NCBI GenBank assembly: GCA_007695365.1
Contig: REDV01000092.1
Coordinates: 68,844-114,707, forward strand
Reading direction: 5' to 3'
DNA length: 45,864 bases
Origin: Cryomorphaceae bacterium
GTDB taxonomy: Bacteria > Bacteroidota > Bacteroidia > Flavobacteriales_D > SKUL01
The notes under the pieces were generated by a model that made no database searches, had not been told where the DNA came from, and worked only from the letters and a program-made list of their open reading frames with translations. The translations under genes were made by a program, and so were the position numbers. Below, piece after piece: positions 39,229 through 39,756 of the stretch (its first letter is position 1; each line of letters begins with the position of its first letter).

Positions 39229-39345
39229 CGTGGCGCAAAATTAACACATTGGTGACGTTGGTGCTAAACCCGGTTTTCCGGACAGAATTATAACATATAA
39301 TCGGCGATGCATATGGAATACCTCCGACCGCATGAGCAAGTGAAT

Positions 39346-39378
39346 AAAAAAAGCCCCAACTTTCGATGAGGCTTTTTG
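39346..39378 (-). terminator. Terminator copy in repeat unit nearest DUF4421 gene
   Basis: On the minus strand, AAAAGCCTCA pairs with TGGGGCTTTT (one G-U) around an 8-nt loop and runs into seven T. The same hairpin recurs at 39497-39529 and behind the tRNA at 39648-39680. Confidence 0.85.
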
Positions 39379-39496
39379 TTGTGATCCCGCTGGGGCTTAC
39401 CGATATGTGTTTTCAGCCGCTCGTTACTCGCGTGAAAACATCATCGGCATAAACTTCTCGCCCCGCTGTATCATGGATGTATTCACATGTTTGAAT

Positions 39497-39529
39497 AAAA
39501 AAAGCCCCAACTTTCGATGAGGCTTTTTG
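39497..39529 (-). terminator. Terminator copy in middle repeat unit
   Basis: Exact copy of the 39346-39378 hairpin, 151 bp away. Confidence 0.85.
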
Positions 39530-39647
39530 TTGTGATCCCGCTGGGGCTTACCGATATGTGTTTTCAGCCGCTCGTTACTCGCGTGAAAACATCATCGGCA
39601 TAAACTTCTCGCCCCGCTGTATCATGGATGTATTCACATGTTTGAAT

Positions 39648-39680
39648 AAAAAAAGCCCCAACTTTCGATGAGGCTTTTTG
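39648..39680 (-). terminator. Terminator of tRNA-Lys
   Basis: Same hairpin, starting 4 nt past the tRNA 3' end (39684). It is the presumed original from which the two others were copied. Confidence 0.88.
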
Positions 39681-39683
39681 TTG

Positions 39684-39756
39684 TGATCCCGCTGGGGCTC
39701 GAACCCAGGACCCACGCCTTAAAAGGGCGTTGCTCTACCAACTGAGCTACGGAATC
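39684..39756 (-). tRNA. tRNA-Lys, anticodon TTT
   Basis: 73 nt on the minus strand. The acceptor stem GATTCCG pairs with CGGGATC (one G-U). The D arm contains GCTCAGTTGGTAGAGC, the anticodon arm ACGCC-CTTTTAA-GGCGT gives anticodon TTT, and the T arm is CTGGG-TTCGAGC-CCCAG. The discriminator is A and CCA is not encoded. All helices form without mismatches apart from the wobble, so it should be functional. Confidence 0.96.

Follow-up and report, generated by a model that had tools for sequence, protein, structure and literature searches.

Tandem tail units behind a tRNA-Lys gene of a Cryomorphaceae bacterium and a family of putative tRNA-linked repeats in Bacteroidota

The window, that is, the whole stretch of DNA analysed here, comprises 45,864 nucleotides from a contig (REDV01000092.1) of a Cryomorphaceae bacterium. 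An intact tRNA-Lys(TTT) gene is located on its minus strand and is followed by an array that extends from the gene toward lower coordinates, which is downstream on this strand. The array has the following features:

39683..39756, minus strand: tRNA-Lys(TTT), intact, without encoded CCA (ARAGORN; Rfam RF00005, 70.5 bits)
39643..39699, minus strand: first 57-nt copy, made of the last 16 nt of the tRNA (from A58), the trailer and an intrinsic terminator
39492..39642, minus strand: unit 1 (151 bp), a 94-nt spacer with a hairpin, then the second 57-nt copy
39540..39618, minus strand: hairpin of unit 1, with arm GCGGGGC, core GAGAAGTTTAT, inner helix and tail start GCCCCAGC (fold and covariance model R1)
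39596..39613, minus strand: conserved core of unit 1, GGCGAGAAGTTTATGCCG
39492..39548, minus strand: second 57-nt copy of tail and terminator
39341..39491, minus strand: unit 2 (151 bp), identical to unit 1
39389..39467, minus strand: hairpin of unit 2 (covariance model R1, match G000:C92:108232-108310)
39445..39462, minus strand: conserved core of unit 2, GGCGAGAAGTTTATGCCG
39341..39397, minus strand: third and last copy of tail and terminator, presumably the ancestral one

Each 57-nt copy starts, on the tRNA strand, at the T-loop residue A58 (AGCCCCAGCGGGATCA) and consists of 16 nt of the tRNA, the trailer and the terminator; the three copies are 100% identical, and the two 94-nt spacers between them are identical as well. 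The same 100% identity holds for the two 151-nt units (39341-39491 and 39492-39642), which an earlier note on this DNA had described with correct coordinates. The exact 151-nt repeat excludes a chance origin, and the exact identity of the units within the array points to a recent tandem amplification, as judged by sequence; two units is the copy number as assembled in the 154-contig host assembly. The hairpin of unit 1 matched covariance model R1 with E=2.4e-8 (match G000:C92:108383-108461), a value obtained with training rows that include the hairpin itself. In the window, arm and tail pair as GGGGC/GCCCC, and a terminator lies between the tRNA-Lys gene and each hairpin. No ORF of 60 or more amino acids was found inside the 94-nt spacer and no GIY-YIG ORF in the unit, and neither the 94 nt between the tail copies nor the neighbourhood of the array holds an integrase gene or island. 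The flank past the third copy (CACTTGCTCATG) is similar to the flank past the single terminator of a congeneric sister genome, G001 (ACACTTGCTGATC).

The earlier note had regarded the 94-nt spacer as unique, which did not hold. A search of the host genome identified, on a different contig, a hairpin 79% identical to that of the spacer; it stands behind a tRNA gene with anticodon CAT (tRNA-Met) and is followed by a copy of the tRNA-Met gene's own 3' end and a terminator. A census of the 31 host tRNA genes found with the Rfam tRNA model, with the reversed tail as the control, located own-tail copies downstream of five (Lys, Met, Asn, Arg(CCT) and Leu(CAG)) and reversed-tail copies at none of the 31. 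Over four genomes, nearby own-tail copies were found at 12 of 125 tRNA genes, versus 0 of 125 for the reversed tail. The Leu(CAG) array of the host genome contains three units that are exact copies. The hairpin loops of the host Lys, Met and Leu units are clearly related, and the arms and tails match each respective tRNA, as in the Leu unit with arm GGACTGGAC and tail GTCCAGTCC.

The sister genome G001 has a bare tRNA-Lys gene with one terminator and no unit; its Met and Leu tRNA genes do have units, with loops matching the ones in the host. In Flavobacterium aquatile LMG 4008, hairpins identical over 28 nt stand behind tRNA-Gly and tRNA-Gln, with different tails and arms. Related hairpins behind different tRNAs, together with a sister genome without the Lys unit, indicate that the units appear to spread between tRNA genes, and on these comparisons the hairpins evidently move or are copied from one tRNA gene to another. 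It is possible that the empty tRNA-Lys gene of G001 reflects loss rather than non-insertion, and the common hairpins could have been spread by gene conversion.

Two further arrays deserve mention. At a tRNA-Ala gene (L112), two adjacent units have a common arm and tail and different inner loops, which suggests that loops are exchangeable inside arrays. Behind a tRNA-Lys(CTT) gene (L093, 3135-3830), a tail unit contains a gene for a 23S-rRNA-intervening-sequence protein (PF05635, four-helix bundle), the only clear protein cargo found in core-bearing units.

A search for the spacer in related genomes, proposed in the earlier note, located its hairpin core in relatives. The core GGCGAGAAGTTTATSCCG, with at most one mismatch, gave 35 matches in 20 of 150 relatives, and the reversed pattern gave one. 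Among the matches listed for the exact core in a species-level genome collection, almost all were from Bacteroidota, with Flavobacteriales, Cytophagales, Bacteroidales, Chitinophagales/Saprospirales and Pedobacter represented; one exception was a Clostridiales genome in which the core lies inside a coding sequence (L133). Also among the matches listed, 82 of 110 exact cores were found at most 700 nt behind a same-strand tRNA (14 anticodons, at least about 80 loci), and many of the remaining ones sit at contig starts or ends, where assemblies break at repeats. Of 396 genomes sampled from the whole phylum, 6 had the exact core, and the family is therefore patchy.

The hairpin alignment was built from pattern matches, a bias that is relaxed by the covariance model made from the aligned rows. 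This model gave 46 matches in 26 of 120 relatives; 24 of the 30 loci inspected lay behind a tRNA gene and two behind a tmRNA gene, and the rest were tail remnants or contig ends. The genes carrying units encode tRNA-Lys, Met, Asn, Gln, Leu, Ala, Gly, His, Thr, Trp and Arg as well as tmRNA. In the tmRNA (ssrA) units (L356 and L364) the arm is CGGGAG, versus the usual GGGC, and matches the tmRNA tail ACTCCCG; this arm variant was outside the training set of the covariance model. In all inspected covariance-model loci, as in the tRNA-Lys array, the tail copy begins in the T-loop (GGTTCG^A), at position 58 or beside it. Among 114 related units from the core matches, 84 end in the host tail in near-exact form.

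Three loci (L075, 5536; L122, 1867, from a Saprospiraceae MAG; and L105, 7685) also hold core hairpins that have a repeat or stem on their downstream side, but an Rfam search recognised no tRNA, tmRNA or Rfam RNA upstream of them. These hairpins possibly accompany the tail of another stable RNA.

Assembly error, which the earlier note had named as a possible source of the repeats, is an unlikely cause of the phenomenon as a whole: three units were found behind tRNA-Asn in a genome assembled as a single contig (G002), and the arrangement is thus not generally an assembly artefact.

Sixty-four distinct units were aligned and follow the scheme arm - GAGAAGTYTAT - SCCGA..loop..TCGGSR - tail, in which the 11-nt internal loop is conserved phylum-wide. 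In the two proposed helices, standard pairs accounted for 82.0% of the positions, versus 74.1% after shuffling, and covariation was 0.270 versus 0.141, falling to 0.09 or less when the helices were slid by 1-3 columns. One inner pair was C-G in 53 units, G-U in nine, A-U in one and G-C in one, and was never unpaired. The inner helix contained 29 G-T/T-G cells versus two A-C/C-A cells, which argues that the fold forms on the tRNA-sense strand, as RNA or as sense single-stranded DNA. Tandem G-A/A-G replaces two inner pairs in 21 of the 64 rows, and a tandem GA motif was also reported for RtT RNA (PMC7657543). Pairing between the arm and the host tail exceeded that of shuffled arms at positions 62, 63 and 66 (0 of 2000 shuffles; n=84 units with a close tail copy) and, less strongly, at positions 64 and 65; past position 62 it amounted to about 50-60%.

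The likeness to the E. coli tyrT locus and its rtT RNA pointed out in the earlier note was borne out. In E. coli K-12, where tyrT and 13 further tRNA regions were read, units at tyrT and argVYZQ and several lys units share the layout of a complementary 5' arm and a tail copy beginning in the T-loop. The arms of the tyrT/tyrV repeats are complementary to the tail copy over 10 of 10 positions, as in tyrV with arm GGGGAAGGAT and tail copy ATCCTTCCCC, and the complementarity elsewhere is 3-10 bp; arm lengths reach 8 at argVYZQ and 10 at lysT and are mostly 5-10 bp in both spacers. A hairpin, AACGTTGC..GCAACGGCCCGAAGGGCGA, precedes the tail copy behind both Lys and Arg tRNAs. In the distal repeats of tyrV the arm is followed by GAGAAG, which may be a coincidence. 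The Rfam model classes the E. coli tyr and lys units as RtT, and the TLR-type arm-hairpin-tail units at argQ-argZ-argY-argV (L392) are below its threshold.

The E. coli units have been named tRNA-linked repeats (TLR), of which there are 22 at ten loci, with 18-19 bp in common with the upstream gene (PMC8144298); they were described by Rudd 1999 and Egan & Landy 1978, as cited in PMC8144298. They have no known function, and an early claim concerning amino-acid starvation was retracted (PMC8144298). Variable-number tandem repeats of rtT have been reported from Salmonella (PMC2658671), and RtT has also been reported beside tRNA genes of Pasteurellaceae (PMC4986893). The earlier note knew of no description of such an arrangement; this stands for the Bacteroidota hairpin family, for which none was found in the open literature searched, but the kind itself had been described in E. 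coli as TLR (PMC8144298).

As in the definition of TLR (PMC8144298), the 3' end of the Bacteroidota units corresponds to the tail of the upstream gene, and the units lie downstream, on the same strand, in tRNA operons. The definition also has TLRs transcribed with, and processed out of, the primary transcript of the tRNA or rRNA genes; in the array of the window, each hairpin comes after a terminator. In both groups the unit ends in the upstream gene's own 3' end from the T-loop on, the copies are in tandem, the 5' arm is complementary to the tail, related hairpins occur behind different tRNAs and there is no agreed function. The Bacteroidota units differ in that the core GAGAAGTYTAT-SCCGA..TCGGSR is phylum-wide, in that each unit has a terminator and in that they also use tmRNA and are patchy and mobile-looking. 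RF00391 (RtT) gave no match at E<=5 or E<=10 in the window or at six loci from Bacteroidota, and Rfam searches covering the window and several relatives matched only the tRNA. Given the TLR layout and no match to RF00391, the Bacteroidota units were filed as a TLR variant and not as members of Rfam RtT, an assignment by analogy of layout with the E. coli units.

On balance, the array is probably a Bacteroidota form of TLR/RtT-like repeat, a non-autonomous mobile unit that enters the T-loop and is amplified by recombination between tails. The unit consists of a host copy from A58 with trailer and terminator, a short spacer, and the complementary arm, GAGAAGTYTAT and inner hairpin, up to the next A58. 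It would enter tRNA and tmRNA genes at the conserved T-loop GGTTCG^A (R57/A58), and the gene would stay whole, since its 3' part would either be brought in or be duplicated. Homologous recombination between identical tails would then raise or lower the number of units. In read-through transcripts, each extra tail would be folded up in a T-stem-like hairpin, which would shield the tRNA from mispairing with a decoy tail; as with E. coli RtT and RrB, a small RNA could also be processed from the folded tail. The earlier note's suggestion that a tiny element had inserted gains from the related hairpins behind other tRNAs, the empty sister tRNA-Lys gene and the fixed point of entry. On the other hand, the analysis found neither an integrase nor a transposase, and the lack of either enzyme tied to the hairpin unit counts against mobility, as does the limited arm pairing past position 62. 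The identity of the three 57-nt copies indicates that the native terminator was itself duplicated or was homogenised later, and simple insertion predicts neither.

A different possibility is that the units are useful to the host, as conserved small-RNA or 3'-processing modules that mimic the tRNA 3' end and from which maturation nucleases release a short RNA, an idea already put forward for E. coli RrB/RtT. The covarying sense-strand structure with its G-U wobble pairs and the phylum-wide internal loop are what such modules would show, and in E. coli the RrA/B/F RNAs are transcribed and bind Hfq and CsrA in vitro, with the tail copy proposed as an RNase E signal (PMC8144298). The rrA/B/F TLRs also hold their position in Enterobacteriales (PMC8144298), which suggests retention for function. 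However, the Bacteroidota units are patchy, as the 26 of 120 relatives and the 6 of 396 genomes indicate, species differ in the tRNAs used, and a terminator separates the tRNA from the hairpin. This explanation, the main rival, is rather unlikely, and it is compatible with a mobile unit.

The earlier note also suggested tandem duplication; in its simple form, slippage or unequal crossing-over would have copied the tRNA 3' end and downstream sequence, with no mobile element. Such duplication accords with the exact unit copies in the Lys array and the threefold Leu array and with the variable rtT copy number in Salmonella (PMC2658671), and it probably explains the growth of an existing array. 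By itself it is insufficient and improbable, since it leaves unexplained how, in many families, unrelated tRNAs and tmRNA come to be followed by a hairpin with common core and loop, and why arm and tail follow the host gene. A still more doubtful alternative concerns att-site scars, in which a tyrosine integrase acting in trans integrates tiny folded single-stranded DNA circles with a tRNA-like stem. The 3' ends of tRNA genes are classic att sites, and CTX phage integrates at dif as folded single-stranded DNA; in addition, the arm/tail stem amounts to a double-stranded copy of the tRNA tail, the boundary lies in the T-loop and one array (L119) holds an integrase remnant. Nevertheless, the wobble asymmetry favours RNA over single-stranded DNA, no integrase partner was found and many units adjoin no integrase. 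A search of 2.9 million viral contigs gave 16 exact core matches; most of them plainly fall within coding sequence (EKFIP-type) and no match adjoins a tRNA, so that no viral carrier emerged.

In the same bacteria, small GIY-YIG genes (PF01541) were found 43-260 nt behind tRNAs at about 25 of 30 loci. They often precede a partial tRNA copy whose T-loop or anticodon arm is interrupted by a palindrome, and are often in tandem; palindromes such as TCCGCCGCGGCGGA and CCGTCAGCTGACGG were observed at loci L178-L207, L034, L043, L048 and L070. These genes look like a family of tRNA-homing elements. They resemble the tail units in their location behind tRNAs, the partial tRNA copy and the tandem arrangement, whereas they code for a nuclease and lack the GAGAAG core, and the window array has no such ORF. 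The phage GIY-YIG enzyme SegB, encoded beside tRNAs, drives tandem amplification (PMC13096335). Genome by genome, GIY-YIG genes beside tRNAs and the core tended to occur together (14 of 16 versus 47 of 104, Fisher p=0.002), a comparison confounded by lineage and genome size. A direct partnership of GIY-YIG genes with the hairpin unit was considered and set aside: none of the 30 fetched loci carries the core, and the arrays end in other palindromes. By analogy, the GIY-YIG arrays lend support to T-loop entry as a strategy. We tentatively propose, with less confidence than for the mobile unit in Bacteroidota, that TLRs are a class of minimal mobile elements over Bacteroidota and Enterobacteria, in which entry at the T-loop, regeneration of the gene and an arm fitted to the host tail would let one hairpin colonise many tRNAs, and of which the GIY-YIG cassettes would be the protein-coding counterpart.

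The first TLR/RtT repeats came to light in E. coli in 1978, and no function or origin has gained acceptance since. A second phylum with many copies, gains and losses makes TLR a comparative problem, with testable features in the conserved core, the insertion point R57/A58 and the rule that the arm follows the host tail. The tail units also explain assembly breaks at tRNA genes, and they are a candidate new RNA family that can be checked in RNA-seq of cultured strains.

A mirror image of the 3' arrangement was observed on another contig of the host genome (L191, contig C85, 1-665), where tRNA-Arg(ACG) has two tandem GIY-YIG genes upstream and a copy of the tRNA 5' half with the palindrome CCTGCCTGCCGGCAGGCAGG precedes each of these genes.

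Like REP and MITE sequences, the tail units are short, non-coding, palindromic and repeated in the genome, and some inner loops contain palindromes of the GAGCGNAGTCGAG type; REPs and MITEs are intergenic, whereas the hairpin core is confined to tRNA and tmRNA tails and has a host-specific arm and tail. Three related inserts of about 170 nt (behind Asn in the host genome and behind Met and Leu in G001) lie between GAGAAG or GAGAGG and TTTAT of the tail-unit hairpin. Although located in the core, they proved to be something unrelated, a MITE-like repeat that has inverted repeats at its ends. This structured repeat of about 170 nt, with ends AACCCAAA..TTTGGGTT, was observed in the host genus at loci L331, L333, L335, L337, L332, L334 and L330, in unit 2 of L230, and at L250 and L285.
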